A stretch of 64,000 nt of DNA from positions 1 through 64,000 of the forward strand of contig JAJDAH010000224.1 in NCBI GenBank assembly GCA_029261965.1. Reading direction: 5' to 3'. The translations under genes were made by a program, and so were the position numbers. This document shows positions 7,103 through 32,074 of this stretch, piece by piece. This stretch comes from Polyangiaceae bacterium. Its GTDB lineage: Bacteria; Myxococcota_A; Polyangia; Polyangiales; Polyangiaceae. The notes under the pieces were generated by a model. The model was not told the DNA's origin. It did no database searches and was given only the letters and a program-made list of their open reading frames with translations. Each line of letters begins with the position of its first letter. The first letter of the stretch is position 1.

Positions 7103-8197
7103 TCAGTAGACGAACGGCAGCATTCGGAAGCGAACGCGTTCGCAGTATTCGCGCCAGAGCGCGCCGTACTTGTTGCGACACTTCTTGTCGTCGCGGGCGG
7201 CCCGCTGGACCAGAAGGATCACCAGGCTGAGCGGCAAGAGGTACGGAATGAAGCTGTCGAAACCCGTCGTGAGAGCGAACGCGAGATAAACGCCAATTTC
7301 GCCGGTGTAGTTGATCTTCCGTCCGAGGCCCCACCAGCCCGACACCAAGAGCCGTCCACCAACCGCTTCGGCCGGTTTGCCCCAGATGTGCGCTCTCTTG
7401 TCCTGTTTGTAGGCCTCCTTTTGCCAGTTGGCTTCGCGAAAAACCCACAGCGACACCAAGTAGAACGCGGAGAGCGAGAACCACTCGATGGTGCTGAACG
7501 GCTGCACTTGATCCACGAGCCACCAGCCCGGCAGGCTGTAAAAGAACGGCACATAGACCAGATCGCCCCAAACGAGCATCAACCCGAAGTTTTCGCTGAT
7601 CACGTCCCACGTGCTCAACATGAACTCCTCTTTGACGTAGTGGGTGAAGAGGTAGCCGAACCAAAAGGCCACGAAACACCACATCTGCGGCGTGATGAAC
7701 CCGTGGCGCTCGTACTGCGCGTAGGCGAATCCGACGACGATGAGATTCGCCCCGATGAGCGACGGGTGATACATGAACATCTTCACATCGACCCCAAAGA
7801 ACGTCGGGTTGAGCTCGGCACCGAACCACAGGTCCTTCAGCCAACGCGGCAACCGGGTGCCCTCTCCGGCCGGGGCCTTCAGCCGCCCCGGACGACGACC
7901 CGACACGAACAGCGCAGCACTGACGACGAACGCGACGACGTTGGCGGCCGCGAACAGGCCCCAGAAACGCTCGACGACCGGCGCGAGCGACCATCCAGCC
8001 GCAAACGTGCCCACGCCGACGGCGATGTGGGCCATGAAAAAAAGCGTCATGCCGCTCAGCTTGTACGGCTTCCGGCGCCCGTTCGGCTGCTTGTAACCGA
8101 GGCGTTCCAACCCCGGCAGCACTATCGAGCCGACGAAGAGAACCAGCACGAACCCGACGCACATCACGGCGCCGGCCCACAGCGTTTGTTCCGACAA
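7103..8197 (-). CDS. sterol reductase of the ERG24/TM7SF2/LBR family (probable delta-14-sterol reductase)
   Basis: A 364-residue polytopic membrane protein, last gene of the sterol operon. The C-terminal half matches the ERG4/ERG24 family closely: GAELNPTFFGVDVKMF (127-142), NFGLMLVWGDLVYVPFFYS (203-221), LLVSGWWGLGRKINYTGE (283-300), and the terminal CRNKYGALWREYCERV (340-355) ending in PFVY. The wording is nearer to human LBR/TM7SF2 (C-14 reductases) than to DHCR7, and the reaction follows CYP51, so NADPH-dependent reduction of the delta-14 bond is favoured. C-7 or C-24(28) reduction cannot be excluded. The start is a TTG placed directly after the ferredoxin stop, with GAGGG just upstream; an ATG 33 bases further in is an alternative. 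Ten or so hydrophobic segments are visible. Confidence 0.88.
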   Translation of the reverse strand: MSEQTLWAGAVMCVGFVLVLFVGSIVLPGLERLGYKQPNGRRKPYKLSGMTLFFMAHIAVGVGTFAAGWSLAPVVERFWGLFAAANVVAFVVSAALFVSGRRPGRLKAPAGEGTRLPRWLKDLWFGAELNPTFFGVDVKMFMYHPSLIGANLIVVGFAYAQYERHGFITPQMWCFVAFWFGYLFTHYVKEEFMLSTWDVISENFGLMLVWGDLVYVPFFYSLPGWWLVDQVQPFSTIEWFSLSAFYLVSLWVFREANWQKEAYKQDKRAHIWGKPAEAVGGRLLVSGWWGLGRKINYTGEIGVYLAFALTTGFDSFIPYLLPLSLVILLVQRAARDDKKCRNKYGALWREYCERVRFRMLPFVY

Positions 8198-8392
8198 CTA
8201 GCCCTCGACGATCTTGATGGCGCGAGTGGGACAGTACTTCACGGCAAGCTCGACTTTCCGACGAAGCTCCTCCGGTGGGTTCTCGAGAAGGATCTGCACG
8301 TTGCCATCGTCATCCAACTGGAAGACCTCGGGTGCGTCCCCTTCACAGTTTCCGTGTCCCTGGCACATGTCGTAGTCGATCACGATCTTCAC
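8198..8392 (-). CDS. [3Fe-4S] ferredoxin of the CYP51-partner type
   Basis: A 64-residue ferredoxin with Cys10, Cys16 and Cys54. His13 occupies the position of the fourth Cys (CQGHGNC, then YCP), the signature of 3Fe-4S ferredoxins that feed bacterial P450s. It resembles the ferredoxin encoded next to CYP51 in mycobacteria. Its job is presumably to pass electrons to the P450 encoded two genes upstream in this operon. The start is GTG at 8392, supported by an AGGAG Shine-Dalgarno that overlaps the preceding gene's stop; the next gene starts on the base after its stop codon. No ferredoxin reductase is in the window. Confidence 0.93.
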   Translation of the reverse strand: MKIVIDYDMCQGHGNCEGDAPEVFQLDDDGNVQILLENPPEELRRKVELAVKYCPTRAIKIVEG

Positions 8393-8403
8393 TGACTTCT
8401 CTC

Positions 8404-9300
8404 CTACTCGGGTAGCGGCTCTAGGCAGCTCTCGTCGAAATCACGAAACCCCTGGGCATCGTCCTCCACCGTGGTGAGATACGGCGCGACCGAGTATCGC
8501 AGCCCCTGCAAAACGAGGTCTTGCGCGTACACCGCGGCGAGAACCCACATGGCGATCGGCAAGAGCGCCGCGCTCTTTCCCGGGCGCTCGTCGATGGCGA
8601 GCCAAACCGGCAGCGCGAAACAAAACGCCGTCCCATACGCGACGGTTCCGAACGACAAAGCGAGCGTCGGGCTGTCGTAGCAGAACAGGTGCGTCATGAA
8701 CGGATTCGCGTTGAGCGCGGTCTCCAGAAACGCCACAGCGAAGGGTGCCGTCGCGATGGCGGGGTACTGGACCCATTTGGGCGAACCCGCAACGGCACTC
8801 CGGACGCCGCGAAAGGTCATGAGGCAGAGCACCGAATAGGTCGCGAAATACGCGATCGTGATGATGTAGAGCCCGATCGGCGTCTGGCGCACGTTGAGGG
8901 TCGTATTGAACCCGTAGTGCATGTGAAGCACGTCGAAGAAAAACCAATTGTGCTGGTAGTTGATGAGGATCGCGAAGAGGGTGACGGAGAACCCCAACTT
9001 GAACGCCGTGCTTCGCCACCACGGACGTGCTCGCTCCTCCGTCGACCGGAGGACTATCGGCAGCACAAGCGCCGCCGCGCCGACCACGACGCAGAAGATG
9101 GTGAGACCGAGATCCCGCCATTGATTGGCGAGCCCGCCCATCATCACCACCGCCGCGGCAATGCCCCAGACCGGCGTGTACCAGAGCCAAATTCTCTCGG
9201 TCGCCCGTTTGGCCGGATTCGCCGAGAAGAGATGGTCGAATCGACCAGCGCGGGGCTCTTGGGTCTCCGCCCCCACGGCTCCGGGGGCGCCCGCGCTCAT
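8404..9300 (-). CDS. cycloeucalenol cycloisomerase (CPI1)-like membrane protein
   Basis: The 298-residue reading starts at the ATG at 9300, which overlaps the CYP51 stop by four bases; a longer frame would run through CYP51. About eight hydrophobic segments. Several blocks align by eye with plant CPI1, the enzyme that opens the 9,19-cyclopropane ring of cycloeucalenol to give obtusifoliol: WLWYTPVWGI near residue 37, NYQHNWFFFDVLHMHYGF near 115, FATYSVLCLMTFRGVRSA near 155, and FLETALNANPF followed by LPVWLAIDE in the last third. The N-terminal SANPAKRATERIWLWYTP parallels the plant start. Position beside CYP51, a sterol reductase and an ERG2-type isomerase supports a sterol role. Activity and substrate are inferred. 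Confidence 0.85.
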   Translation of the reverse strand: MSAGAPGAVGAETQEPRAGRFDHLFSANPAKRATERIWLWYTPVWGIAAAVVMMGGLANQWRDLGLTIFCVVVGAAALVLPIVLRSTEERARPWWRSTAFKLGFSVTLFAILINYQHNWFFFDVLHMHYGFNTTLNVRQTPIGLYIITIAYFATYSVLCLMTFRGVRSAVAGSPKWVQYPAIATAPFAVAFLETALNANPFMTHLFCYDSPTLALSFGTVAYGTAFCFALPVWLAIDERPGKSAALLPIAMWVLAAVYAQDLVLQGLRYSVAPYLTTVEDDAQGFRDFDESCLEPLPE

Positions 9301-10679
9301 GGGTGATTCCGACGCCGACGGTAATTCACACGCACCGGACCCTTGGGACCGACGACCACCCCGGCGAAGTCCGTTTCGATGCGGTCGCCCGCAAGCCATA
9401 GCTCGTAGCGGCGAAGCAGCTTGGCGAAGATGACCTTGATCTGAAGAATCGCGAACGCGTTGCCGAGGCACTTGTGCCGCCCGCCACCGAACGAAATGTA
9501 GTTGAAGCGGTTCTTGTCCTCTTCGCGGTCCGGAGCGAAGCGGTCCGGATCGAACGCATCCGGATCCTCGAAGACGCTGGCGATACGGTGGGAAACAGCG
9601 GGGGAAACCACGAGGTTCGAACCCTTGGGCATCACGTACCCGTCGTACTCGAAGTCCTCCATCACCGTCCGGAGAAGCATGAAAAGTGGCGGATGCAACC
9701 GGAGCGCCTCTTTGATGGCGTACTCCAGCAAAGTGAGCTCGCGAAGCGAGACGTAGCTGATGTCGTCGCTGTCACCGTAGACGTCTTCGAGCTGCCGGAG
9801 GACCCGCGCGAGGTAGTACGGATGTTGGAGCAACTCGAACATCGTCCAGGCCGTCGTCATGCTGCTGGTGTGGTGACCGGCGAACATCGCCGCGAGCAGC
9901 ATCCCGGTGATCTCGTGATCCGAGAGGCCCTGCCCGTCCTCGTACTTCGCCTCCATCAGCGTCTGCAGAAAGTCCTCCCCCTCGCGACCGCTTTTCCGAC
10001 GCTCCCTGACGATGCCGCCGATGAGCTCCTCGAGCCGTACGCGCGCCTTGTCTCGCTTCTTGAACGCGGGGATGGGCAAGTACGGATTGAGGTACCCGAT
10101 GGGGTGAATCCCCTGTTCGAGGTCGTGATACAGCTCGGAAAATTCGACGGTCAGCCGTCCCCGAAACTCGGGACCGAGCAAGCAGTGGGCCGACGTGTAG
10201 TTCGTGAGCTTGGCGCAGTAGCCCACGAAGTCGGTCACGCCCGCGTCGCCGAGCTCGTCGATGCTCAAGTCGACTTCCTTGGCGACGATCTCGCCGTAAG
10301 TGCGCATGCGTTTGTCCCGCAGCGCCGGCATCAGCATCGCCATCTGTTCGCCGAGCTTCTTCGGCGTCGGCGCGTCGTAGACGACATCCTTGCCGAAAAC
10401 CGGCGTCATCATCTTGTACGCCTCTTTGGCGCTCAGCTGCTCGTCCGGCGCGCGAAAAAACGCCTCGCTCGCTTCTGGCCCGGTGAGCAGAAACATCTTC
10501 TTGTGGGCCAATCGGAACCCGGCGACGTCGCCGTGCTCGCGTCGCGCCCGGTGGAGCAACCCGAAAGCATCTCTTCCGAACTCGATCGCGTGTCCGAGCA
10601 GCGGCAAGCCGCCCGAGATCATCGGGGGCATTCTCGTTCCGGTCGAGCGAAACGGCGCGTCCGCAGCGTGCTGTGCCAT
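9297..10679 (-). CDS. cyp51: sterol 14-alpha-demethylase, cytochrome P450 CYP51
   Basis: P450 that oxidatively removes the 14-alpha-methyl group of sterols. In the 460-residue reading: the B'-region SAKEAYKMMTPVFGKDVVYDA (about 83-103), closely matching bacterial CYP51 such as the mycobacterial one; the I-helix AMFAGHHTSS (264-273) with the CYP51-typical His-Thr pair; ExxR as EALR (324-327); and the heme loop FGGGRHKCLG with Cys404. There is no N-terminal membrane anchor, so it is a soluble bacterial-type form. Of two nearby ATGs, the second (10679) is preferred because GAGGAG lies 8 bases before it but only 2 before the first (10685). It is 32 bases downstream of the ERG2-like gene and coupled to the CPI1-like gene by ATGA. 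Confidence 0.95.
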   Translation of the reverse strand: MAQHAADAPFRSTGTRMPPMISGGLPLLGHAIEFGRDAFGLLHRARREHGDVAGFRLAHKKMFLLTGPEASEAFFRAPDEQLSAKEAYKMMTPVFGKDVVYDAPTPKKLGEQMAMLMPALRDKRMRTYGEIVAKEVDLSIDELGDAGVTDFVGYCAKLTNYTSAHCLLGPEFRGRLTVEFSELYHDLEQGIHPIGYLNPYLPIPAFKKRDKARVRLEELIGGIVRERRKSGREGEDFLQTLMEAKYEDGQGLSDHEITGMLLAAMFAGHHTSSMTTAWTMFELLQHPYYLARVLRQLEDVYGDSDDISYVSLRELTLLEYAIKEALRLHPPLFMLLRTVMEDFEYDGYVMPKGSNLVVSPAVSHRIASVFEDPDAFDPDRFAPDREEDKNRFNYISFGGGRHKCLGNAFAILQIKVIFAKLLRRYELWLAGDRIETDFAGVVVGPKGPVRVNYRRRRNHP

Positions 10680-10711
10680 GTTCATTTCTCCTCGGCCAAG
10701 AGCCGACAGCG

Positions 10712-11269
10712 TCAGATCTTTCCCTGCATGAGCTCACGCGTGGCGGCGCCCGTGTAGACCTTTAGAGTGTCCCAAACCGACCGAACATCGAGCGTGCTCG
10801 AAAACGCGTCGGCCAATCCGAAGGGCAACATGCCCGGGATGTTGCCGCGCGCGTACTCTAGCGCCCAGCATCGTTCGGGGATCCGGTAGGCCTTGGCGCG
10901 CCCCTTGGGCAGATGGTGCAGGTCCCCCGGTCGGTAGACTTCGGGCTCGAGCGCGCCCGGTGCAAACGCGCGCTGCTCGCCGTCGAGAATGTAAAAGTAG
11001 TCGTCCGAGGAGAAGCGACCCGTGTGCCCCTCGGTACCAATCGGCGTACCGAAAATGATGACGTACTCGGTGATCGACGCGTGCAGCACGAGCATCGCCC
11101 CCATGGCGCCGCCCGCGTTGTTCAAGACCCAGCGCCCGGGATCACGAACGTGACCTGGGTAGCGTTCGCCGAGGTCTCGAATCAGCTTCTCGATCACCTC
11201 GTCGACGGGCGGTCCAATCGCGCCTTTGACGACTTCGTGTAGTTGTTGGGGGTCGAAGATGGTGGACAT
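10712..11269 (-). CDS. C-8 sterol isomerase of the ERG2/sigma-1 receptor family
   Basis: First gene of the sterol operon, 185 residues. The family core is unmistakable: WVLNNAGGAMGAMLVLHAS (47-65), IIFGTPIGTEGHTGRF (71-86), DDYF (89-92), EVYRPGDLHHLPKG (110-123), LEYARGNIPGMLPFGLADAF (137-156) and SSTLD. Glu138 matches the catalytic/ligand Glu of ERG2 and the sigma-1 receptor (Glu172 in the human protein); Asp89/90 lie near the second acidic position. ERG2 moves the delta-8 double bond to delta-7. Unlike the eukaryotic proteins there is no N-terminal membrane helix. The start at 11269 is fixed by GAAGGA six bases upstream (11277-11282); the longer open frame has no family support. The 213-base gap to the divergent gene must hold the operon promoter, but I see only weak boxes. 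Confidence 0.93.
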   Translation of the reverse strand: MSTIFDPQQLHEVVKGAIGPPVDEVIEKLIRDLGERYPGHVRDPGRWVLNNAGGAMGAMLVLHASITEYVIIFGTPIGTEGHTGRFSSDDYFYILDGEQRAFAPGALEPEVYRPGDLHHLPKGRAKAYRIPERCWALEYARGNIPGMLPFGLADAFSSTLDVRSVWDTLKVYTGAATRELMQGKI

Positions 11270-11482
11270 CGCAAAATCCTTCTTCCGCCGCCGCGGGCGG
11301 ACCATACCCCCGGCCGCCGCGTCGTTCCACGCCGCCAACCGGGGTGGAGCAAAGCGCCGATTTCCATCCAAGATTCGACGCTTTAGGTCCGATGGGCGCT
11401 CGGGTTGGCGTCGCCGAATTTGGCCCCCGGCGGCCGGTTCTGGTCTCTGTCGTGCACCGGAGTCGGCGAGAGGAGACGGACG

Positions 11483-11982: not shown

Positions 11983-13320
11983 ATGGCGTGGGCCAGCTTT
12001 ATCTCGGCCGCCCTCGGGCGCTCCGAACCCGCGCTTTCGCTCGCCGCGCTGCGCGTCGTGGTGCCGGCGATGGTGCTCGTCTCGCCCGGATACTGGGAAG
12101 GCAAGAACATCGCGTCGTGGGATCCGGCTCGTTGGGTGGTCCCCGAGGGACTGGGTTTTCTTGTCGCTGCGCTTCCCATCAATGCCCACCTCGCTACGGC
12201 GGCGCAGATCTTGGTCGCCTTCTGCGCGCTGTCGGCCATCGTCGGGATCCGAGCTCGCCTCGCCCTCGCAGGGTTGACGCTTTCAGCGTTCTATCTGCTG
12301 TCGATCGCCCAGCTGAGCGGCTTCGTCTGGCACGACATGCATCTGCTTTGGATGTGCGCCCTGCTCTCGGCGAGTCCATGCGCCGACGTCTTGGCGGTCG
12401 ACGCGCGTCGCCCCCTTTCGGCCGAGGGGCCCGAATACCGTCCAGCGGTTCTCGGCGCGTCGCTACTGCTCGGGGCGATCTATTTTTTCCCCGGCTACCA
12501 CAAGCTGGCCACCTCGGGCTTGGACTGGGCGCTATCGGACAACCTACGAAACCAACTGTACTTCAAGTGGATGCAGCACGGTCGTGTCCCGGCGTTTCGA
12601 ATCGACCAGTTCCCGTGGCTTTTGAAAGGCGGTGGGCTGTTCGTGATGGCGTTCGAGCTCGCCTTTCCATTCTTGGTGCTGTTCCGACGCACCCGCGCGA
12701 TCGCCGCCGCCCTGGGTTTGCTCTTTCATCTCCTGTCGCAACTCATCTTCAAGATCCCGTTCATGAGTCTGTGGATCTGCTACGTGGCCCTCGTCGACCT
12801 GCGCCCCGGTGCACGCTGGGCCGTCGCTCGATCCGCATGGCTGAAGCGTGCCCTCGAGCCAGGCGCGCCGGGGAGCTCGGTTTCGCCCCGCTGGCCGACG
12901 TTCGCGTTGACACTCGTGCTGTTTCCGGCCGCCGTCGTGCAGGGGGCTCGCGGTCAGATGCAGAGCTATCCCTTCGCTTGCTACCCGACGTTTCAGTGGC
13001 GGGCGAGCAGTCAAATGCCGGATCTGAAGATCACCAGAGTCAGCGGCGAAGCCGAGTCCGAAGTGGCTCATGCCCGGTCGGCTCGCGGATACCGGAGCCA
13101 ACGCCAATGGGGGGAGGTGTGGAGGTTGGCCGGGGTCTGGGGAGACGTGAAACCGGAGCGCCTTCGCGCCTACTACTCGTCAGTGACCCGCCGAAATCCT
13201 GCTCATACGGCGTCGAAGATTCGGTTTTATCGGGTCTACCGGCGTGTCGCACCCGAGCACTGGGGGGAGCCGCCGGCGCGCAGCCGGCTCTTGCTCGAGG
13301 TCCCCGCCGCCGCCAACTAG
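11983..13320 (+). CDS. HTTM-like polytopic membrane protein
   Basis: A 445-residue protein with roughly eight to nine hydrophobic segments in the first 330 residues and a soluble C-terminal region. The arrangement resembles the HTTM domain (horizontally transferred transmembrane domain, related to vitamin-K gamma-carboxylase): early ALSLAALRVVVPAMVLVSPGYW, WHDMHLLWMCALLSASPCADV near residue 115, then AIYFFPGYHKLATSGLDW near 168, where carboxylase relatives have the YFNAGVHKL-type motif. A second HLLSQLIF block near 245 also fits. The substrate of these bacterial relatives is unknown. The gene ends 35 bases before the convergent ferritin-like gene. Confidence 0.65.
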   Translation: MAWASFISAALGRSEPALSLAALRVVVPAMVLVSPGYWEGKNIASWDPARWVVPEGLGFLVAALPINAHLATAAQILVAFCALSAIVGIRARLALAGLTLSAFYLLSIAQLSGFVWHDMHLLWMCALLSASPCADVLAVDARRPLSAEGPEYRPAVLGASLLLGAIYFFPGYHKLATSGLDWALSDNLRNQLYFKWMQHGRVPAFRIDQFPWLLKGGGLFVMAFELAFPFLVLFRRTRAIAAALGLLFHLLSQLIFKIPFMSLWICYVALVDLRPGARWAVARSAWLKRALEPGAPGSSVSPRWPTFALTLVLFPAAVVQGARGQMQSYPFACYPTFQWRASSQMPDLKITRVSGEAESEVAHARSARGYRSQRQWGEVWRLAGVWGDVKPERLRAYYSSVTRRNPAHTASKIRFYRVYRRVAPEHWGEPPARSRLLLEVPAAAN

Positions 13321-13355
13321 CGCCCGTCAACTCGATGGAGCTCGGCTCTATCCGA

Positions 13356-14162
13356 CTAGGCCGAGGGATGAATTCCGCGCTCCCTCAACGGACGGCGCAC
13401 GCGCTGCTCCATCGACTTCGCAGCGAGCGCGAGATAGTCGTCGGATTGCATCCAAGCCAGCGCGTCTCCCACGGACTGGTCGTACGCGGTGTTGCGGTTT
13501 TTTTCGATGCTGAGCCACTGCTTCTTGATGGCCCGGATGGTCCGGTCCGCTGCCCGCCCCAAGTGCGCCTTGTCCTCCGTGGTGAGGTCGGGGTCCGCCC
13601 AGTCGAGAAAGGCGAAACCGAAGGTCCCGTGTGCCGCTTCGTCTTTGACGATGCGCCCGAGCACGGCTTTGGGGAGCGGGTGACGGGCCGCGTGCCACGT
13701 CCCACGCAAGAGTGGAATGCTCAAGGCTTCGCCGACGCAAAAGAAACGAACGATCATGTCGGCCGCGCGCATCAGCGGAGAGAGCCCTTCTCCCGCCTCG
13801 ACGATGAGGTCATCGGGATCGTGCACGATCTCCGTTCCCCCCCCGAGCTCCATCGCCATGCGGGCACACAGCTCGACGTGCACGACCTCGTCGAGGGGGA
13901 ATCGCGACGCCATGGCGATCAAATCGAGCGGCGCTCGACATTCGAGCAGCGCTCGAAGCGCCGCGCAGCACGCGATGCCGGTCCGGTGCTCCTGAAAGGC
14001 CGCCCCGGTCCACTGCTTTCTAGCGAGGACGAGCACGTTCTCGGGGATGCCACTCACGTCGAGCGTCCCCCACGGCATCGCCTCGACCTCTGGGCGCATT
14101 TTTCGGTATCGGCGCTCGATGCCTTCGCCGAACAGCTCGAGCTCGAACAGCTCTTCCGGCAT
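13356..14162 (-). CDS. ferritin-like superfamily protein (putative diiron protein)
   Basis: A 268-residue, mostly helical soluble protein. Two E-x-x-H motifs of the kind that bind a diiron centre are spaced across a four-helix-bundle length: DEVVHVELC near residue 91 and KDEAAHGTFGFAFLDWAD near 173. Further acidic residues sit at FQEHRTG (about 57) and VGEALSIPLLRG (about 142). It is not a close match to ferritin, rubrerythrin or ribonucleotide reductase that I can name. The gene lies ten bases after a small repeat-bearing secreted protein on the same strand, suggesting a shared operon. Confidence 0.6.
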   Translation of the reverse strand: MPEELFELELFGEGIERRYRKMRPEVEAMPWGTLDVSGIPENVLVLARKQWTGAAFQEHRTGIACCAALRALLECRAPLDLIAMASRFPLDEVVHVELCARMAMELGGGTEIVHDPDDLIVEAGEGLSPLMRAADMIVRFFCVGEALSIPLLRGTWHAARHPLPKAVLGRIVKDEAAHGTFGFAFLDWADPDLTTEDKAHLGRAADRTIRAIKKQWLSIEKNRNTAYDQSVGDALAWMQSDDYLALAAKSMEQRVRRPLRERGIHPSA

Positions 14163-14171
14163 TTTGCTCGC

Positions 14172-14510
14172 TCAGTCCCCGGCGTCGTCGGGCGGGGCAA
14201 TGAGATTGGCCACCACATCGAGCGCGACGGCCACATCGCGTGCGGCATCGGCCGCGTCGCCGTCGGAGGCGTCTTCGATCGGGGCCATGAGATTGGCCAC
14301 GACGTCGAGCCCGGTCACTTGTCCATCGGTGGGTGGAGCAACGAGATTGGCGACGACATCGAAGCTCTGCGTGTCCGCCGCCGCGTCCGCCGGTGGCGCC
14401 ACCAGATTCGCCACGGTGTCCTTGTTGCTGCTGCCACACGCGACGTAGCTCACCGCAGCGACCCCGAGAGACGCGACTAGCAGCTTTCTGCCCCGACGTT
14501 TGCGCTCCAC
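14172..14510 (-). CDS. small secreted/lipoprotein-like protein with four VANLxAP repeats
   Basis: 112 residues by the GTG at 14510, chosen because it then begins VERKRRGRKLLVASLGVA, matching its neighbour at 14619-14909 (MDRKKRRRRRLLVASIGVA); a TTG at 14546 would add 12 residues. A basic N-terminus, a hydrophobic stretch and SYVAC suggest an exported, possibly lipidated protein, though the lipobox is non-canonical. The rest is Asp/Ala-rich and carries four copies of VANL(V/M/I)AP at roughly 20- to 30-residue intervals. I know of no function. It precedes the ferritin-like gene by ten bases. Confidence 0.6.
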   Translation of the reverse strand: MERKRRGRKLLVASLGVAAVSYVACGSSNKDTVANLVAPPADAAADTQSFDVVANLVAPPTDGQVTGLDVVANLMAPIEDASDGDAADAARDVAVALDVVANLIAPPDDAGD

Positions 14511-14618
14511 CACTTCCAGTTTCGCGGACCCGACGCCGATCTGCAAGCTGGAGGGGCTAGTTTGAGGGGCGAGGCCGCCGAGTTTTGCTGGCGAAAAGCG
14601 CAGCGCTTCAGCGGCCGC

Positions 14619-14909
14619 CTAGGGAGGCCCGCCATCGGTCTTGGGCAGCGGAGGGATCTCGTCTGGCGCGACCAGGTTGCCGATGGGCTCTGGCGGCGGC
14701 TCCGGAGGCGGTGGGGGCGGCTCCGGGGACCGAGCGTCGCCCTCGGCGATCGTCGCCGTTGGGGCGGCAGTGGCCGGCGGCATGGGGTCCGGTGCCATGA
14801 TGTTTCCTACCGGTTCGGCCGCTTTACGGTTGCATGCGACGTAGCTGATGCTCGCCACGCCAATTGATGCGACCAGCAATCGGCGGCGACGTCGTTTCTT
14901 CCGATCCAT
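14619..14909 (-). CDS. small secreted/lipoprotein-like protein with (V/I)GN(I/L)xAP repeats, paralogue of the next gene
   Basis: 96 residues. It has the same N-terminal pattern as the protein at 14172-14510: a run of Arg/Lys, LLVASIGVASISYVAC, then a Pro/Glu-rich low-complexity segment. Two motifs, VGNIMAP and IGNLVAP, correspond to the repeats of the paralogue. The two genes are 108 bases apart, same strand, and look like a local duplication followed by divergence of everything except the signal region and the repeat motif. Function unknown. Confidence 0.6.
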   Translation of the reverse strand: MDRKKRRRRRLLVASIGVASISYVACNRKAAEPVGNIMAPDPMPPATAAPTATIAEGDARSPEPPPPPPEPPPEPIGNLVAPDEIPPLPKTDGGPP

Positions 14910-14965
14910 CGACCGGCATCATCCCCGAGGCCGGCGGGCTCGCGCAAGGCGGAGCCGGGGCAACG

Positions 14966-15337
14966 TCAGAGCGAGGGGAATATGGCCACCATGAAAAACA
15001 CCAACCCGACCCCGAGGAAAACCGCGCAACCGCAACCGCAACCATACGGTGCGATCTTCCCGGGACCCGGTTTGTCCTTCATCGCAAACCGGCCGATGAG
15101 CGCCCCGAGGCCCGCGCCCCAGAAAAACCCAACGGGCCCGGCGACGACGTACGACGCCGTCATTCCCGCCGATTCGGAATCGTAGGCGGCGATGCCGACG
15201 ACCGCTCCGCCGACTAGCGTCGCGAGAACTCCGAGCACGTTCCAGACGATGACCGCGGTCTTTCCGACCGGCGCGTCCTTCGGCGGGCCGTCCGCGTTAG
15301 GTGGACCTAGCGGCGAGCCCTGGTGTTGTTGTTGCAT
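14966..15337 (-). CDS. hypothetical small membrane protein
   Basis: 123 residues with a Pro/Gly/Gln-rich N-terminal tail (1-24) and three hydrophobic segments: VIVWNVLGVLATLVGGAVVG near 30, SYVVAGPVGFFWGAGLGALIG near 63, and CAVFLGVGLVFFMVAIF at the C-terminus. A GCGCGC cluster precedes the last helix. It is probably in the inner membrane. I cannot assign a family. It lies 48 bases downstream of the RND pump on the same strand. Confidence 0.55.
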   Translation of the reverse strand: MQQQHQGSPLGPPNADGPPKDAPVGKTAVIVWNVLGVLATLVGGAVVGIAAYDSESAGMTASYVVAGPVGFFWGAGLGALIGRFAMKDKPGPGKIAPYGCGCGCAVFLGVGLVFFMVAIFPSL

Positions 15338-15385
15338 TCGCAGGCGTGCTTAGCACGAGCGGAGCGCGCCCGCGCGAAGAAGGCG

Positions 15386-18300
15386 TCACTCGCCGGGGGC
15401 GGGGGTCGGCGCCTCCCCGGCGAAAACAGCCAGCACTTTCCGCGCGACGGCTCGTGCGTCCTCGAGCACCAGGTAGAGGGCTGGCACGAGCAACAAGATG
15501 ATGAACGTGGCCGACAGAATGCCGAAACCGAGGCTCAACGCCATCGGGATGAGGAACCGAGCTTGCACGGACGTTTCGACGATCATCGGGGCGAGCCCCA
15601 GAAAGGTGGTGAGTGATGTCAACAGAATCGGCCGAAAGCGCCGGGCGCCGCCGGCTACGACGGCGTCGCGCGCTTCCATTCCTCGCGCCCGGAACTTGTT
15701 GGTGGCATCCACGAGCACGAGCGAGTCGTTCACGACCACGCCGGAGAGCGCGATGATCCCGAACATGCTGATGATGCTCATTTCGAACCCCATGAGCAGG
15801 TGCCCCGCAACCGCACCGACGATACCGAATGGGATCGCCGACATCACGATGGCTGGCTGCGCGTAGCTCTTGAACGGGATCGCGAGTAGCGCGAAAATCA
15901 TGAACAAGGCGACGATGTAGTTCCGCCCGAGGGACGCGAAGGTTTCCGCCTGAGCCCGCTGGGTGCCGACTTTTTCCGCGCTCAAGCCCGGGTACCGCCT
16001 CTCCAGATCCGGCAGAACGGTTTCGGCGATCGACGCCAACACCTCGCGCGGCGACTTTTGACCCGGGGCGAGATCCGCAGCCACGTTGACGACGCGTTTG
16101 CCATCCTCCCGGGTGATGACCGTTGGAGAGGTCGACCGCTCGAAACGCGCGACGTAGGCGAGCGGAACATCCCCACCCTCCGCCGTCCTGATCCGCAGCT
16201 TCTCCAGATCGTATTCCGACGACCGTTGCGATTCGGGAAGTCGCACGATGACTCGGACCTCGTTGCGCCCGCGTTGCTCCCGCAGCGCCTCTGCGCCAAA
16301 AAACGCGCCGCGAAGTTGACGAGCCACGTCGGCACCAGTCAATCCGAGCGTGCGCGCATGGGGTAGCAAGTGAAAATCGAGACGGGGTTTGCCCGACGAA
16401 TAGCTATTTTCGACGTTGGTCAGGGCGGTGTACTCGCGTAGCGTCGCGGTGAGCTCCTCCGAAGCCTTGCCGAGCACCTCGGTGTCGGTGTGACTCAGTT
16501 GAAGCGTGACGGCTGCGCCGGCCCCCGGACCCGTGGCGTGGTTGAACGCCAGAGCGTTGAGTCCGGGGATGGGCGGTGTCGCCGCCGCCCACTGTTTCGA
16601 GAACTCCTTCGAGGTGTAGCCGCGGTCGTCGCCCGGCACGAGGTTGACGGCGATGCCGACGACGTGGCTGCCGGCTTCCGGGGCGCCGGGGTTAGGGCCA
16701 CCGCCCCCGCGGGATTCCCCCATCGTGGTGACGACACCGCGGATCTTACTTCGTCCGCCCAATTTTTCGATCGCGACGTTGGCGGATTCTTCGAGCAGAC
16801 GTCGAACTTCCTCCGCCCTCGCCTGGGAGGCGCCGTAGGGCAACCTGGCCGAAGCACTCACGCGGTCCCCTTCGAGTTTCGGGAAGAAGCTGAACGGCAC
16901 GAGCCCGCTCGCCATGATGCCCGCGGTGACGATGATGAGACCGAGACCAACGGCGAGAGCGATGTACCGGAAATCCAGGACACGATTGAGCGCCGGTCGG
17001 TAGGTGTGCTCGATGATCCATTCGAGCCCTGCAGCGACTTTTTGCTGACCCCGGTCGATTCGTTCGAGGATCCGCGGCTGCTTCCGCCCGCTGTGCCCGA
17101 GGTGCGCCGGCAGGATGAAAAACGACTCGAACAGGCTGGCCACGAGGACCAAGCAAACGATCGAGGGAATGAGCATGAAGATCTTGCCGATGAAACCCGG
17201 CACGAAAAACAGCGGGCCGAACGCCACGACGGTCGTGAGGATCGCGAAGGTGATGGGCGTGGCCATTTCACGCGCGCCGGCGATCGCCGCGTCGAGAGGC
17301 GCAAGACCTTGCTGCTGCTTGGTGTATGTGTTCTCTCCCACGATGATCGCGTCGTCGACGACGATTCCCAAGGTCACGATGAACGCGAAGGACGTGATCA
17401 TGTTGATCGAAAGTCCGACCACCGGCATCATCGCCAATGCCGCGAGGAACGAAATCGGAATGCCGAGGGCGACCCAGGCGGCCAATCGCAGCCTCAAAAA
17501 GAGCGCCAGCGACACGAGCACCAGAACCAGGCCGAGCTGGGCGTTTCTCCGTAACAGATCGAGCCGTTCCGTCAGTCGCTCGGAGTCGTCGGACAGCACC
17601 GTCACGAACACGTTCTCCGGAAGCTCTTCGCGGAGCTCCACGAGATAGCTGCGCACGGCCTCGGACACCGACTTGGGAGTTTCGTCTCCTATGCGATAGG
17701 CGGTCAGCTCGATAGAGGGTTTGCCATCGAAGTAGGTGCTCTTGTCATCGTCAGCGTAGCCGTCGGTGATTTTTGCGATGTCCCCGACCCGGACTTCCGC
17801 GCCGTCCCTCGTGCCCTTGAGGATGACGTTGGCGAACTCGGTGACCGATCGCCGCCGGTCCGCGAGTCGAATGAGCACCTCACCCCCGCTAGTTTCGATT
17901 TCACCGCCGGGCAGCTCGAGCGAGGCGGCGCGGATCTCGGCGGCTACCTGTGCCAGAGTCAAGCCGTACGCCTCGAGGGACTCGCGGCTCACTTCGACGG
18001 CGACCTCCACCGGTGGCACACCGCTGATTTCGACTTGCGTGACGTCGGGTTTGGCCAAGAGTCCCGCACGGGCCCTCTCTGCAATTTCGTGCAGCGTTCT
18101 CAGATCGTGCTCACCCGCAATCGCGAGCGAGATGACCTCGCGGCGACGGCTGAGCAAGCTGACGATGGGTTTCTCGGCGTCTTCGGGAAACGTCGTGATG
18201 CGATCCACGGCGGACTTCACGTCGTCCAGGGCCTTGTCGGCGTCGGCGCCGGCGAGCAACTCGATGACGACACTGCCGGAACCCTCGTTGCCCGAAGCCG

Positions 18301-27242: not shown

Positions 27243-28562
27243 ATGCTTTGCACGAAGCGCCTTGGACTCGCCGGGATTCTGGCCACGGCCGCGCTCGGCT
27301 GCAGTGACAACCAGCTCGGCAGCCTCGTCGACGGCGTGTTCACCGAAGCGGAGTGGGAGAAAATCCAAACCCTGTCGCCGCTACCGGAAATCCCCGCCGA
27401 TCCGACGAACGCAGTCGCCGACGATCCCGACGCGGCCACGCTCGGCCAAATGCTCTACTTCGACAAGGCATTCTCCCAAGCGCTGAAGATCGACAGCGAC
27501 CTCGGCAGCGTGGGCGAGGAGGGGAAGATCAACTGCGCCGACTGCCATGGGCCGACCTGGTACGACGACAAGCGCTCGACACCAAACGCCACGTCGATCG
27601 GCGTCGACCGCGGCTCGCGCAACAGTCCTACGGTGGTCAACGTCGTGTTCTACGAGTGGTTCTACTGGGATGGCCGCGCAGATACGATGTGGGGACAAGC
27701 TCTCGCTGCTGCGGAGTCCGGCGTGCAACAACAGACGACGCGCTTGCACACGGCGCACGTGCTCTACGCGAAGTACAAAGACGAATACAATGCCGTTTTC
27801 GATCCGGATCTCGACGACGCGCTCGACCCCACCAGCCCCGACGCCGCACGTTTTCCACTGCAGGGCCGGCCCAAAGCCGCCGGGGCGCCCGACGGAGCCT
27901 GGGAAGGCATGACCCCGGAGGACCAAGATCACGTCAATCGCATCATGGCGAACTTCGGCAAGCTACTCGCCGCCTACGAACGGCTGCTCGTCAGCCGAAA
28001 CGCCCCGTTCGACCAATACGTCGCGGGCGATACGGACGCCATGAGCGCGAGTGCCAAACGCGGGCTCAAGAGCTTCGTGAGCAAGGCTGGGTGTGTCGAG
28101 TGCCACGCCTCACCCATCTTTACTGACCAGGGATTTCACAACATCGGTGTCCCGCAGGTCGGGGAGTTCGTGAGAGAAGAGGAGCTGGGACGCTTCATGG
28201 CGGTCGAACAGGCGCTGAACAACCCGTTCAACAGCAACGGGGTCTACAGTGATGACACGAGCACCGGCAAGCTCGACGGGCTCGAGCAGACCGAAGAGCT
28301 GCGAGGGGCATTCCGCACCAAACACCTCAGACAAATCGCAGCCACCGGCCCGTACATGCACACCGGTCACCTCGATTCCCTCCGCGCCGTCGTCGAGTTT
28401 TACAACGACGGTGGGGTGGACTCCGGGTTCGTCGGAACGAAGGACGAGCGCATCCTCCCGCTCAACTTGAGCTCGGCGGAAATCGACGACCTCGTGGCGT
28501 TCCTCGAAGCGCTGACGGGTGACGAAGTCCCGTCGGGCTTACAGCAGGACACATCGCGATAG
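27243..28562 (+). CDS. diheme cytochrome c peroxidase/MauG-family lipoprotein
   Basis: 439 residues; signal peptide ending ALGC (Cys20) suggests a lipoprotein facing the periplasm. Two heme sites: Cys98-Ala-Asp-Cys101-His102 (INCADCHGP) and Cys284-Val-Glu-Cys287-His288 (GCVECHASPIFTDQGFHNIG), with SRNSPTVVNVVFYEWFYWDGR between them, all typical of bacterial CcpA/MauG proteins. The family reduces hydrogen peroxide or carries out long-range oxidation. First gene of a plus-strand run reaching 37463, in which a cupredoxin and a multiheme cytochrome could be its electron donors. It begins 81 bases after the kinase gene. Confidence 0.9.
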   Translation: MLCTKRLGLAGILATAALGCSDNQLGSLVDGVFTEAEWEKIQTLSPLPEIPADPTNAVADDPDAATLGQMLYFDKAFSQALKIDSDLGSVGEEGKINCADCHGPTWYDDKRSTPNATSIGVDRGSRNSPTVVNVVFYEWFYWDGRADTMWGQALAAAESGVQQQTTRLHTAHVLYAKYKDEYNAVFDPDLDDALDPTSPDAARFPLQGRPKAAGAPDGAWEGMTPEDQDHVNRIMANFGKLLAAYERLLVSRNAPFDQYVAGDTDAMSASAKRGLKSFVSKAGCVECHASPIFTDQGFHNIGVPQVGEFVREEELGRFMAVEQALNNPFNSNGVYSDDTSTGKLDGLEQTEELRGAFRTKHLRQIAATGPYMHTGHLDSLRAVVEFYNDGGVDSGFVGTKDERILPLNLSSAEIDDLVAFLEALTGDEVPSGLQQDTSR

Positions 28563-28581
28563 CCCCGGCACCCGGCGCGGC

Positions 28582-30147
28582 ATGAGAACGAAACGGGTCC
28601 TGTTGGCGGCCGGTGCCATCTGGGCAACGGCTGGAAGTGCGTATGCGCAGCCGCCCGTGCCGCCGCCCCCGGCCGAGGGGGAGGAGGGACCGGCCACCGA
28701 AGCACCGACCCCCGAGGTTGACAGGACACCGACCACGAAGGCTGCTCAGCCCCAACCCGGCGCAGCGTCCGGGCCGGAAGCGCCGCCCGAGCCCGAGGCG
28801 CCGAAGGTCGCCGTTCAGTCCGGCGACGACGACACGTTGAAGCGACTCGCGGAGCTCGAAGCTCGCACTGAAGATCTCGCAGAACGCAACGTCGAGCTCG
28901 AGGAAGAGCTCGAGATCCTGCGCGAAGACCAGGAGTGGACCGCGGAGCGAGTCGACAAGATTCTCCCCCTCACCGCGAAGGTGAGCGGCTACATCGACAT
29001 GGGTTTTTTCTACGTCGAGGGCGACGGCCGAGGCATCCGCTCGGACACGGGGTTTGTCTTCTTTCCCGAATTCAACGGAGTCGTGCCCGACTCTTGGGTG
29101 TTCATGGGCGACCCACTGTCGACCGCAATCAACTCCCGCGGAGATCCGGCGGATGTGAGCGAGTCCCGAGCCATCACGTCGAACCCCATCGACAGCAATG
29201 GCAACGCGACCGCCATTCTGAACAACATCAATCTGCAGCTGTTTGCCGGAATTGGCGAGCACGTGACGGTCAACGGGATGATCGACTTCATTCCACGAAG
29301 TCGCGACGCATCTGATCCCGATGGGCTGACGACGGGTGATTTCATCGACGTTCGCTTGGGCTACCTCGAGTACCGCGCGCCGACCGAAAACATCGGCATC
29401 ACGCTGAGTGTCGGCAAGTTCGACTCGGTGCTCGGTTTCGAGTACCGGTCACAGGAAGCGGTGGACCGGCTGACAGTCACCCCGTCACTCATCTGCCGCT
29501 ACACGTGCGGGCACCCCATCGGCATCAAGTCCCGCCTGAAGTTTTTCGACGACGCGCTCGTGCTCAATGTCTCCGCGACGAACGGGAGCCATTTCACGGA
29601 GGGCTTCCCTTTCAGCAACGAGACCGACGACAACGACTTCAAGACCGGCGCCGGTAGACTCTCGTATCGATTCGACGTCGGCTCGGGGTTGGAGATCGGC
29701 GCCTCCGGCGCCTACGGGGCGCAGGATTTTCAGGCAGCCGACGATGTGCCGCAGTGGCACGCCGGCGCCGATGTGCGCCTCGAGGCCGCTGGGCTGGAAA
29801 TCACTGGGGAATATGTCAAGGGCGAGGCCGAGGGCGTGAGCACGCCGGGCGAGCCGCGCTGCGGCGACGCGCCGTGTCTCGAGTACCAAGGCGCCTACGG
29901 GCTGTTCGGCTACCGGGTCAACAACTGGCTCATCCCCTACGCCCGCGTGGACTGGCGCGATGCATTGCATACGAGCGGGGCGAGCTTCGTCTACATTTCC
30001 GAGCTCGTTCGCGTGACGGCGGGCGTGCGCCTCGAAGTGGATCCTGCCATCATCATCAAAGCAGAATACACGGTGAACCGCGAGCTCGGCCGGCTCCCGC
30101 AATTCCCCAACGACATTTTCACCAGCTCGGTGACCGCGCGATTCTAA
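28582..30147 (+). CDS. outer-membrane beta-barrel (porin-like) protein with N-terminal coiled coil
   Basis: 521 residues from the ATG at 28582, where a signal peptide ending SAYA-Q appears; the longer frame overlaps the previous gene. A Pro/Glu-rich stretch (25-75) is followed by a coiled coil (about 84-125, LKRLAELEARTEDLAERNVELEEELEIL). The remainder alternates polar and hydrophobic residues as in a beta barrel. The last residues TSSVTARF end in Phe, the usual signal for the BAM insertion machinery. Similar to OprP/putative porin proteins. Gene spacing (19 and 17 bases to its neighbours) places it in the redox operon. Probably the outer-membrane component; what passes through it is unknown. 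Confidence 0.8.
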   Translation: MRTKRVLLAAGAIWATAGSAYAQPPVPPPPAEGEEGPATEAPTPEVDRTPTTKAAQPQPGAASGPEAPPEPEAPKVAVQSGDDDTLKRLAELEARTEDLAERNVELEEELEILREDQEWTAERVDKILPLTAKVSGYIDMGFFYVEGDGRGIRSDTGFVFFPEFNGVVPDSWVFMGDPLSTAINSRGDPADVSESRAITSNPIDSNGNATAILNNINLQLFAGIGEHVTVNGMIDFIPRSRDASDPDGLTTGDFIDVRLGYLEYRAPTENIGITLSVGKFDSVLGFEYRSQEAVDRLTVTPSLICRYTCGHPIGIKSRLKFFDDALVLNVSATNGSHFTEGFPFSNETDDNDFKTGAGRLSYRFDVGSGLEIGASGAYGAQDFQAADDVPQWHAGADVRLEAAGLEITGEYVKGEAEGVSTPGEPRCGDAPCLEYQGAYGLFGYRVNNWLIPYARVDWRDALHTSGASFVYISELVRVTAGVRLEVDPAIIIKAEYTVNRELGRLPQFPNDIFTSSVTARF

Positions 30148-30164
30148 ACTCGGAGGACTAGACG

Positions 30165-30845
30165 ATGCTCAGACGAACCGCGATTGCCAGCCTGCTCGCC
30201 CTGGGGCTCACCACGGTTCTGAGCGTCGACGCCCAGGCCGCCAAGACTGGCAGCGTCAGTGGACTCGTCGTCGTCAAGAACAAGCAGGACAAAGCGCTGA
30301 AGGACCACTCGAATGTCGTTGTCTTCCTCGAAGGCGTGGCCGACGCCCTGCCTGACCAGTCGAAGGTCGTGCACAAGATCCGCCAGAAGGACAAGCAGTT
30401 CCGCCCACCTCTCACCGTCGTTTTGAAGGGCAGCACACTCGAGTTCCCCAACGAAGACAAGATTGACCACAACGTGTTCTCGCTCTCGAGAGCGGCTCGC
30501 TTCGATCTCGGGCTCTACCGCAGCGGAAAAAGCAAGAGCGTCAAGGTCAAGCGCACGGGCGTGATCGACGTCTATTGCAACATCCACCCGCAAATGGCGG
30601 CAAAGATCGTCGTGCTGGACACGAAGTTCCATTCGATCAGCGACAAGCGCGGGCGCTTTCGAATCGACAAGGTTCCACCGGGCAAGTACAAGATGGTCGC
30701 GTGGCATGCGCGGGGCCGAGCTTGGAAGGGACAAGTCGAAATCTCCGCGGGTGGCAACACCGAGCAGAACCTTTCGGTGACGCAGAAGAAGAAGAAGAAG
30801 CGTCATCTTCGAAAAGACGGCACGCCCTACGGCCGCTACAAATAG
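30165..30845 (+). CDS. periplasmic cupredoxin (plastocyanin/methylamine-utilisation-like) protein
   Basis: 226 residues with a signal peptide ending AQA-A and a strong GGAGG ribosome site eight bases before the ATG. The cupredoxin fold carries a full type-1 copper ligand set: His102 (KIDHNVFS), Cys138 and His141 (VYCNIHPQM) and Met144. A second beta domain (about 155-205, DKRGRFRIDKVPPGKYKMVAWH) looks like a carboxypeptidase-regulatory-like module. The C-terminal tail is Lys-rich. It likely shuttles electrons between the multiheme cytochrome and the peroxidase encoded beside it. Confidence 0.88.
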   Translation: MLRRTAIASLLALGLTTVLSVDAQAAKTGSVSGLVVVKNKQDKALKDHSNVVVFLEGVADALPDQSKVVHKIRQKDKQFRPPLTVVLKGSTLEFPNEDKIDHNVFSLSRAARFDLGLYRSGKSKSVKVKRTGVIDVYCNIHPQMAAKIVVLDTKFHSISDKRGRFRIDKVPPGKYKMVAWHARGRAWKGQVEISAGGNTEQNLSVTQKKKKKRHLRKDGTPYGRYK

Positions 30846-30859
30846 CGCTTCTCGGCGGG

Positions 30860-32074
30860 TTGCCGCTTCTGTTCGCCTGCGATCGAGAGCAAGCCCAACC
30901 CGCGAAACCTCTGGCTTCCGCGGCGTCTGCCAGCGCGGCCTCGGTGGCGAGCACGGCCCCGGCCGGGTCCACCGCGCCCACGCACGAGTTGGACGGCGGG
31001 CCCGCGGCGAGCGTGTACCCCGCGATTCGCTGCGGCGAGTGCCACGTGAAGATGTACGACGAGTGGGAGCTCTCCCGTCACGCCCAGGCAAATCGCACGG
31101 CTCTGTTTCGGCGAATGCGAAAGCAAGCCAACAGCCCGACGTGCAATCGATGTCATTCGCCGCTCGAAGCGCTCGTGGGCGCCGACGACCTCGCAGCGCG
31201 CGAGGGAGTCAGCTGCGAGACCTGTCATCGCATGCACGAAGTTCGCGCTGACCCAGCCGGCGCGGGTTTCGAGCTCCGCCGGGAGCACGACGTGAAGTTC
31301 GGTCCGCTGTGCGACGCCAAAGCGCCGTACTTCCACAAGACCGAATGCAAGCCGTTCTTCGAGCAGGCTGAGCTCTGTGGGAGCTGCCACCTCTGGGAAA
31401 TGCCGACCGCCAACGGAACGATCCCCGTGTACACCGAGTACGCGGACTGGAAAGCGAGTGGCTACAAGTCCCGACCGTGCCAACAATGCCACATGCCCGG
31501 GGACACGGCGAAAGTCGCCGAGTCGGAAGAAGAACGACCGAACGTCCCAAACCACAGCTTCTTGGGGCGCGAGCGCAGCCTGGCCGGCACCGGCATCGAG
31601 ATCAGCGCCCGCGTTCAGGGCACCGGGGCGACCATCACCGTCGACGCTACGCTGACGAACAAAAAGGCGGGACACCATCTGCCCGCCGGTATGTCCGGAC
31701 GACAGCTCATTTTGCGAGTACGCGCGATCGACGACGACGGTAAGGAAATCGCTCGCAAAGAACGAATTTTCGAGCGCCGCCTCGTCGACGACCGTGGCCG
31801 CCCTGTTCCTTTCTACGAAGCAACGCGTCTCGACACCGACACGCGCATCGGGCCGAAAGCCAAGCGTGAGGAGAAGCTGGAGTTGAAGGTACCAACCGCC
31901 GCGAAGCTCCTCATCGCGCTCTACCGACGTGCGATGGGCCCGGAAGTCGCCCGTCGAGTCGGCGGCCCGGCGCCGGAGGAAGTGTTGGTGCTCGAATCCG
32001 AAACGGCCCTCCGCGAGCCGGCGGCCAAAGGGGCTCGACCCGGGCTGCCGCGTGTGGTCAGGATCAAGCCTTGA
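30860..32074 (+). CDS. multiheme c-type cytochrome (five CxxCH motifs)
   Basis: About 404 residues. Five heme-binding motifs are seen in the first half: CGECH, CNRCH, CETCH, CGSCH and CQQCH. The layout resembles cytochrome c554/NapC-like families. The second half is a beta-rich domain (ITVDATLTNKKAGHHLPAG). The start is uncertain. The TTG at 30860 is the nearest legal start, but the same frame reads KRRHALRPLQIALLGGLPLLFAC before it, an obvious lipoprotein signal that overlaps the end of the cupredoxin gene. That stretch has no ATG, GTG or TTG closer than 30701. Initiation at a rare codon such as the ATA at 30842, or coupling to the upstream stop, is possible. The last codons overlap the next start. 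Confidence 0.82.
   Translation: MPLLFACDREQAQPAKPLASAASASAASVASTAPAGSTAPTHELDGGPAASVYPAIRCGECHVKMYDEWELSRHAQANRTALFRRMRKQANSPTCNRCHSPLEALVGADDLAAREGVSCETCHRMHEVRADPAGAGFELRREHDVKFGPLCDAKAPYFHKTECKPFFEQAELCGSCHLWEMPTANGTIPVYTEYADWKASGYKSRPCQQCHMPGDTAKVAESEEERPNVPNHSFLGRERSLAGTGIEISARVQGTGATITVDATLTNKKAGHHLPAGMSGRQLILRVRAIDDDGKEIARKERIFERRLVDDRGRPVPFYEATRLDTDTRIGPKAKREEKLELKVPTAAKLLIALYRRAMGPEVARRVGGPAPEEVLVLESETALREPAAKGARPGLPRVVRIKP

Follow-up and report, generated by a model that had tools for sequence, protein, structure and literature searches.

A predicted plant-style sterol-tailoring operon and a cycloartenol-type cyclase in an uncultured myxobacterium

Sterol biosynthesis has been described in several bacteria. 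In Sandaracinus amylolyticus a single sterol gene cluster has been published (PMC12004948), and co-localised or fused ferredoxins, together with CYP51/ferredoxin/8,14-Bsr clusters, have been described for the type of CYP51 found in Methylococcus capsulatus (PMC13277303). Other myxobacteria, such as Stigmatella and Cystobacter, produce cycloartenol but are reported not to modify it further (PMC4919349, PMC12004948). In plants, cycloartenol synthase (CAS), the cyclopropylsterol isomerase CPI1, CYP51, a C14 reductase (C14R) and an 8,7-isomerase form the cycloartenol route (summarised in PMC8172173), which is otherwise known in full from plants, algae and some protists. Here we analysed a 64,000-nucleotide stretch of contig JAJDAH010000224.1 (hereafter the window) from an uncultured Polyangiaceae bacterium (Myxococcota; GCA_029261965.1, a 9.6-Mb MAG). 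An earlier note, made from the sequence alone, had proposed that positions 7103-11269 encode a compact five-gene sterol-tailoring operon.

Our analysis confirmed this observation. All five minus-strand genes are present, and each was correctly named at the family level. The first gene (10712..11269, ATG at 11269) encodes a predicted 185-aa ERG2-type sterol C-8(7) isomerase matching ERG2_Sigma1R (PF04622) with 252.6 bits over residues 3-184, and it is the only ERG2 in the genome. Its only solved relatives are sigma-1 receptors, however, genomic context favors an isomerase over a ligand-binding sigma-1-type protein. The second gene (9297..10685) encodes a 462-aa CYP51 sterol 14-alpha-demethylase (p450, PF00067, 237 bits). 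Its best PDB hits were all CYP51s, led by the M. capsulatus enzyme (7jj1/6mi0/6mcw, E 4e-147), and it carries the motifs YKMMTPVFG, AGHHTSS (I-helix) and FGGGRHKCLG (heme). NCBIfam albaflavenone and pentalenene models scored far below their cut-offs, and the PDB hits led us to reject a non-sterol P450. A 64-aa ferredoxin with a GTG start (8198..8392) matched Fer4_15/Fer4_13 (PF13459/PF13370); its best PDB hit was the ferredoxin domain of the M. capsulatus CYP51-ferredoxin fusion (6mcw, E 6e-15), followed by 8amp (E 1e-13). Its cysteine pattern (CxxHxxC...CP) suggests a 3Fe-4S cluster, although the cluster type is inferred. The last gene (7103..8197), with a TTG start directly after the ferredoxin stop, encodes a 364-aa ERG24-type sterol Delta14-reductase (ERG4_ERG24, PF01222, 232.5 bits) present in single copy in the genome. 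Its only PDB hits were Delta14-sterol reductases (4quv, E 1e-54, and 9l5r).

Between CYP51 and the ferredoxin lies the gene for a 298-aa CPI1-like membrane protein (8404..9300), whose ATG overlaps the CYP51 stop (ATGA). This protein matched no Pfam model and had no solved relative, but it aligns end to end with a broad CPI family that was found in 36 of 379 sampled Myxococcota genomes. Against an approximate plant CPI1 sequence it showed 25% identity over 251 aa (E 2e-14), and overall identity to plant CPI1 was about 22-25%. It was 20% identical to a eukaryote-type contig sequence (L065) that groups with plant CPI1 with 100/99 support. Thirteen residues, among them E35, R164 and E193, were invariant over 35 aligned rows that included the eukaryote-type sequence and the approximate plant CPI1. 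Nevertheless, the protein does not fall in the same clade as eukaryotic CPI1. In an unrooted tree it belongs to a bacterial clade (support 100/100) that is separate from the bacterial sequences nearest to plant CPI1. The structural model contains seven long helices (pLDDT 84). Foldseek returned no match with E below 0.001, and VIA-align gave a best Z of 4.5 at 8 A rmsd to a complex I subunit, which we take as a common helical arrangement, although a relative is not excluded. Apparent long fusions of CPI in some genomes proved to be over-extended ORFs only.

The junctions, read from the sequence, were 26 bp from ERG2 to CYP51, a 4-bp overlap between CYP51 and CPI, 11 bp from CPI to the ferredoxin and 0 bp from the ferredoxin to C14R. 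The note's claim of overlaps or gaps of at most about 32 bases therefore holds. The stretch upstream of ERG2 (11270..11478, minus strand) is likely to hold the operon promoter, an inference from sequence only. Chance ORFs were rejected, as five full-length family members in one operon, together with a colinear CYP51-CPI-Fdx-C14R block in another Myxococcota genome (MAG JAAYBZ01), are far beyond chance. CYP51-CPI-Fdx is likewise colinear in a second sampled genome (G132), and CYP51-CPI in RFIY01. The CYP51 tree did not group the window with G132 or with another CPI-bearing genome (G361), so recent co-transfer of the CYP51-CPI module from either lineage was rejected.

The note also stated that the oxidosqualene cyclase (OSC) and squalene epoxidase (SE) are not in the window. 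This is correct, but both are in the genome, where they lie side by side on another contig (C316), the epoxidase being fused to squalene synthase. Absence of a cyclase from the genome had been named beforehand as grounds for refutation, and one OSC and one SE were found. Alignment with the human enzyme (1w6k) showed that the C316 cyclase has the catalytic Asp and the complete cycloartenol-synthase triad (Tyr381/His449/Ile453, human numbering). In bacteria tested chemically, Ile453 always went with cycloartenol and Val453 with lanosterol (PMC4919349). Among the 379 genomes, 15 have this triad, and only the present one also has CYP51 or a CPI homologue.

The interpretation given in the note was only partly supported. 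Every enzyme family, the operon layout and the sterol role were supported, and the plant-type signature of the cyclase adds to them. In contrast, the "CPI1-like" protein is not close to plant CPI1, so its exact reaction is inferred. The note regarded a contiguous set with its own redox partner as unusual, but this is not itself so. The genome taken as S. amylolyticus has ERG2-Fdx-CYP51-SQE/SQS-C14R-OSC together. The SQE and SQS domains of its fusion are 51-55% identical to those on C316, however, its cyclase is of the lanosterol type (Val453), is fused to a second epoxidase-like domain and lies in the same cluster rather than on another contig, and no CPI was found. The description of the set as plant-plus-fungal is a naming effect, since the closest solved relatives of the CYP51, ferredoxin and C14R are bacterial. 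Compared with the M. capsulatus system and the CYP51/ferredoxin/8,14-Bsr clusters, the ferredoxin is likewise beside CYP51 but is a separate gene, CPI lies between the two, and a canonical C14 reductase replaces 8,14-Bsr in the operon. Compared with the plant route, the cyclase triad, a CPI-family protein, CYP51, C14R and the logical steps are shared, whereas the isomerase is of the ERG2 type and the CYP51 has Met at the position (approximately assigned) where plant enzymes have Phe. No clear eukaryotic-type C-4 methyl oxidase was recognized by reading among 10 FA_hydroxylase proteins, a search that did not cover bacterial SdmAB. In contrast to the cycloartenol producers Stigmatella and Cystobacter, a predicted ring-opening and full C-14 branch is encoded here. 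What is new is thus the combination of CPI with a cycloartenol-type cyclase feeding a complete predicted C-14 branch. No report of a bacterial CPI was found in the literature searched, although work outside it (Hoshino and Gaucher 2021, PNAS) could discuss one.

Based on these observations, we predict that the operon encodes the post-cyclization nucleus-tailoring branch of a de novo sterol pathway that starts from cycloartenol, and we give this reading a probability of roughly 0.62. In this view, the squalene synthase-squalene epoxidase fusion and the cyclase on C316 make cycloartenol, and the CPI homologue protonates and opens the 9beta,19-cyclopropane to a Delta8 sterol. From cycloartenol itself the product would be lanosterol, so cycloartenol synthase plus CPI would act as a two-step lanosterol synthase. 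CYP51, fed by the adjacent ferredoxin, would then remove the 14-alpha-methyl to give a Delta8,14-diene, the ERG24-type reductase would saturate Delta14, and the ERG2-type enzyme would move Delta8 to Delta7. Gene content, family membership, the cyclase signature and co-occurrence were demonstrated by our analyses. On the other hand, the production of cycloartenol, the opening of a cyclopropane by CPI, its acceptance of 4,4-dimethyl (or 4-demethylated) substrates unlike cycloeucalenol, the known substrate of the plant enzyme, demethylation by CYP51, the reaction order and the end product are inferred from sequence. In the phylum, CPI homologues co-occur with CYP51 in 32 of 36 genomes (p 5e-17, not corrected for phylogeny), and all 13 genomes found with the window's CPI clade in the named collection have CYP51. 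In addition, a same-family relative with a Val453 cyclase (G375) has CYP51-Fdx-C14R without CPI.

Some observations weigh against this reading and favor alternatives. CPI as a marker of cycloartenol synthase across the phylum was tested and rejected: within 63 OSC genomes, only 1 of 15 with the triad has CPI, against 19 of 48 others. The window's CPI clade also occurs in genomes with Val453 cyclases, including Minicystis rosea, and in genomes where no OSC was found (G361, G132), so its usual substrate may not be home-made cycloartenol. The identity to plant CPI1 of only 22-25% and the lack of a clear eukaryotic-type C-4 methyl oxidase among the 10 FA_hydroxylase proteins also weigh against the cycloartenol reading. 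It is possible, although we consider it doubtful, that the CPI homologue, which sits in a separate clade, is a sterol isomerase of another specificity, for example shifting Delta8, Delta8(14) or Delta7 double bonds after CYP51, and that the cycloartenol route is a coincidence or leads to derivatives with the ring intact. M. rosea makes mainly saturated intermediates whose spectra are nearly identical to lathosterol or 7-dehydrocholesterol (PMC12004948), which would fit this view. However, S. amylolyticus also makes those sterols at a lower level (PMC12004948), and the genome taken as that species has no CPI hit. Further, the thirteen invariant residues are shared between the window's clade and eukaryote-type CPI, and since CYP51 needs a sterol with the ring opened, a cycloartenol producer with CYP51 needs a ring-opening step.

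Two other explanations appear very unlikely. The operon could act mainly on sterols taken from prey, algae or plants, as a salvage or degradation entry module independent of the cell's own cyclase. One sampled genus (g23) and G361 have CYP51-CPI modules with ferredoxin and mostly no detectable OSC, and a gene near the module in L055 resembles extradiol ring-cleavage dioxygenases by reading. Nevertheless, the present genome has squalene synthase, SE and OSC, and an ERG2 and C14R that fit biosynthesis. Alternatively, the MAG could be chimeric and the cyclase could belong to another organism, since the assembly has 480 contigs with 3.5% estimated contamination and the closest OSC in the sample is from another family (G091, 58%). 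In contrast, C316 matches the window in composition (GC 0.64-0.65; tetranucleotide correlation 0.76-0.82 for its two long stretches against at most 0.70 for stretches of other genomes), and a gene on C316 about 6 kb from the epoxidase has its 24 best matches all in the window's family. It also carries the only OSC and only SE in a 96% complete MAG.

In a broader reading, which we consider about as likely as not, a bacterium runs the complete cycloartenol route, with cycloartenol synthase and a divergent bacterial cyclopropylsterol isomerase acting on 4,4-dimethyl substrates together replacing lanosterol synthase, followed by C-14 demethylation, reduction and isomerization. This would be the first bacterial ring-opening of a cyclosterol known to us, and it would mean that the CPI family is widespread in Myxococcota and may predate, or have been shared with, eukaryotes. 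Cycloartenol producers among myxobacteria are reported to stop at cycloartenol, and the sterol-tailoring ones studied start from lanosterol; this genome joins the two. As the CPI family had no Pfam match and no solved relative here, a bacterial member is a useful structural target in itself. If the CPI works as predicted, it gives a bacterial enzyme for a step regarded as a plant, algal and protist hallmark, bears on how the cycloartenol and lanosterol routes arose, and matters for reading sterane biomarkers.

The minus strand of 7103-11269 was found to hold five genes in the order (5′ to 3′) ERG2-type isomerase (11269-10712), CYP51 (10685-9297), a CPI1-like protein (9300-8404), a ferredoxin (8392-8198) and a Delta14-sterol reductase (8197-7103). 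The junctions between them are 26 bp, a 4-bp ATGA overlap, 11 bp and 0 bp. Pfam searches gave matches over the length of the proteins for ERG2_Sigma1R (252.6 bits), p450, Fer4_15/Fer4_13 and ERG4_ERG24 (232.5 bits); however, the CPI protein matched no Pfam or NCBIfam model. The closest solved structures are CYP51 of M. capsulatus (E 4e-147), the ferredoxin domain of the same bacterium’s CYP51-ferredoxin fusion, the Delta14-sterol reductase 4quv (E 1e-54) and, for ERG2, sigma-1 receptors. This confirms the observation of the earlier note, which had described five closely packed sterol-tailoring genes at this location. An HTTM-domain membrane protein (PF05090; 11983-13320, plus strand) lies upstream of the operon and is divergent from it. 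Further along the window (27243-32074, plus strand), a di-haem cytochrome c peroxidase, a porin-like protein and a multihaem cytochrome are encoded in a row and could form an extracellular electron-transfer set.

The window lies in a 9.59-Mb MAG of 480 contigs (96% complete, 3.5% contamination), which has one OSC and one squalene epoxidase, adjacent on a separate contig (C316). The epoxidase is the N-terminal part of a 1141-aa protein whose C-terminal part is a squalene/phytoene synthase (11523-14948 of L003, our extract of C316), and a TetR-family regulator is found directly downstream of the cyclase (L003:8754-9401). ERG2 and ERG4/ERG24 are single copy and both are in the window. Ten FA_hydroxylase proteins exist in the genome and, by reading, none of these is a clear C-4 sterol methyl oxidase, a result that does not extend to the bacterial C-4 enzymes SdmAB. 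Aligned with human lanosterol synthase 1w6k, the OSC has Tyr, His and Ile at positions 381, 449 and 453. Y381/H449/I453 has been stated to suggest a cycloartenol synthase and, in all bacteria tested in that study, I453 went with cycloartenol and V453 with lanosterol (PMC4919349). The organism is therefore predicted to make cycloartenol. Among the other OSC loci compared, the large Val453 clade has Ala or a gap where Tyr/Thr381 is expected (RVAG-ARS), a variation of the product-determining site.

We asked whether C316 was correctly binned. C316 and the window have the same GC (0.64-0.65), and the tetranucleotide correlation of the two long C316 stretches with the window (0.76-0.82) exceeds that of stretches from other genomes (at most 0.70). 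Further, a kinase-like gene on C316, about 6 kb from the epoxidase, has its 24 best matches all in the window’s own family, at 55-68% identity. A chimera is unlikely but not excluded.

In a sample of 379 Myxococcota genomes, the CPI family was found in 36, OSC in 63, ERG2 in 34 and CYP51 in 98. CPI occurs with CYP51 in 32 of 36 genomes (odds ratio 34). Of the 15 genomes with the cycloartenol triad, only the window’s genome has CYP51, and only it has CPI. Although these counts are not corrected for relatedness, they indicate that this genome is exceptional in joining a cycloartenol-type cyclase to the C-14 branch, but that the CPI family as a whole follows CYP51 rather than the cycloartenol triad. 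That is the main evidence against reading every CPI homologue as a cyclopropane opener. In one genus (g23; loci L053-L062), CPI homologues lie beside CYP51 and often ferredoxin in genomes that mostly lack a detectable OSC, which suggests sterol salvage or degradation. At one of these loci (L055), a 200-aa protein between them may be the NTF2-like 8,14-Bsr, although it gave no Pfam hit.

Analysis of gene order showed that CYP51-CPI-Fdx-C14R is colinear in MAG JAAYBZ010000121 (G361), CYP51-CPI-Fdx in a further genome (G132) and CYP51-CPI in RFIY01000092. In contrast, a same-family relative with a Val453 cyclase (G375) has CYP51-Fdx-C14R without CPI. A 10,327,335-bp genome, inferred to be that of Sandaracinus amylolyticus, has ERG2-Fdx-CYP51-SQE/SQS-C14R-OSC together. 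The sterol genes of this species are reported to be largely in one cluster, and it is reported to make cholesterol (PMC12004948). The operon described here is thus that kind of cluster with a CPI added and a different cyclase elsewhere. The squalene epoxidase-squalene/phytoene synthase fusion seen on C316 is also present in the Sandaracinus-type cluster (1146 aa; 11993-15433 of locus L253). In the same cluster, the oxidosqualene cyclase is fused to an N-terminal squalene-epoxidase-like domain (L253:16649-19996); a similar fusion is only suspected for other Val453 OSC hits with open frames of about 1150 aa.

The CPI protein shares 13 invariant residues with all 34 other family rows, including a eukaryote-type sequence (L065) and an Arabidopsis CPI1 sequence that is not a database record and serves as a lead only, although its grouping with L065 at 100/99 supports it. 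L065 comes from contig C121 of a 72% complete MAG (G280); this contig has a GC of 0.48 and low-complexity flanks, and it looks like a contaminating algal contig. The identity of the window’s CPI to these two sequences is 20-25%, against 32-39% for the bacterial homologue L057. The window’s clade is supported 100/100 and includes Minicystis rosea (CP016211), a cultured cholesterol-producing myxobacterium whose CPI homologue (8001-8627 of locus L196) is located away from its OSC-CYP51-ferredoxin cluster and which would be a tractable strain for testing CPI function. The predicted fold (13-row alignment, pLDDT 84, pTM 0.81) has seven long helices, and no convincing relative was found in the PDB.

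Opening the 9beta,19-cyclopropane of cycloartenol to a Delta8 sterol gives lanosterol, so cycloartenol synthase plus CPI would equal a two-step lanosterol synthase. CYP51 with its ferredoxin, the Delta14 reductase and ERG2 would then give Delta8,14, Delta8 and Delta7 sterols in turn. The known substrate of the plant enzyme is cycloeucalenol (PMC7794993), which has lost one C-4 methyl; either the bacterial enzyme accepts 4,4-dimethyl sterols or C-4 demethylation comes first. While the presence and arrangement of the five genes are confirmed by our analyses, these reaction steps, ring opening by the CPI protein included, are inferred.

It is reported that cycloartenol-type Myxococcaceae probably do not modify cycloartenol further, and Labilithrix luteola has been named as a cycloartenol-type exception in its family (PMC12004948). 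CYP51s that co-occur with the NTF2-family reductase 8,14-Bsr are reported to be fused to or beside their ferredoxin (PMC13277303). No description of a bacterial cyclopropylsterol isomerase was found in the literature that we searched, which did not take in every relevant paper. We therefore regard the finding as a bacterial sterol operon of an already known type that differs in having a predicted cycloartenol entry and a putative ring-opening enzyme.
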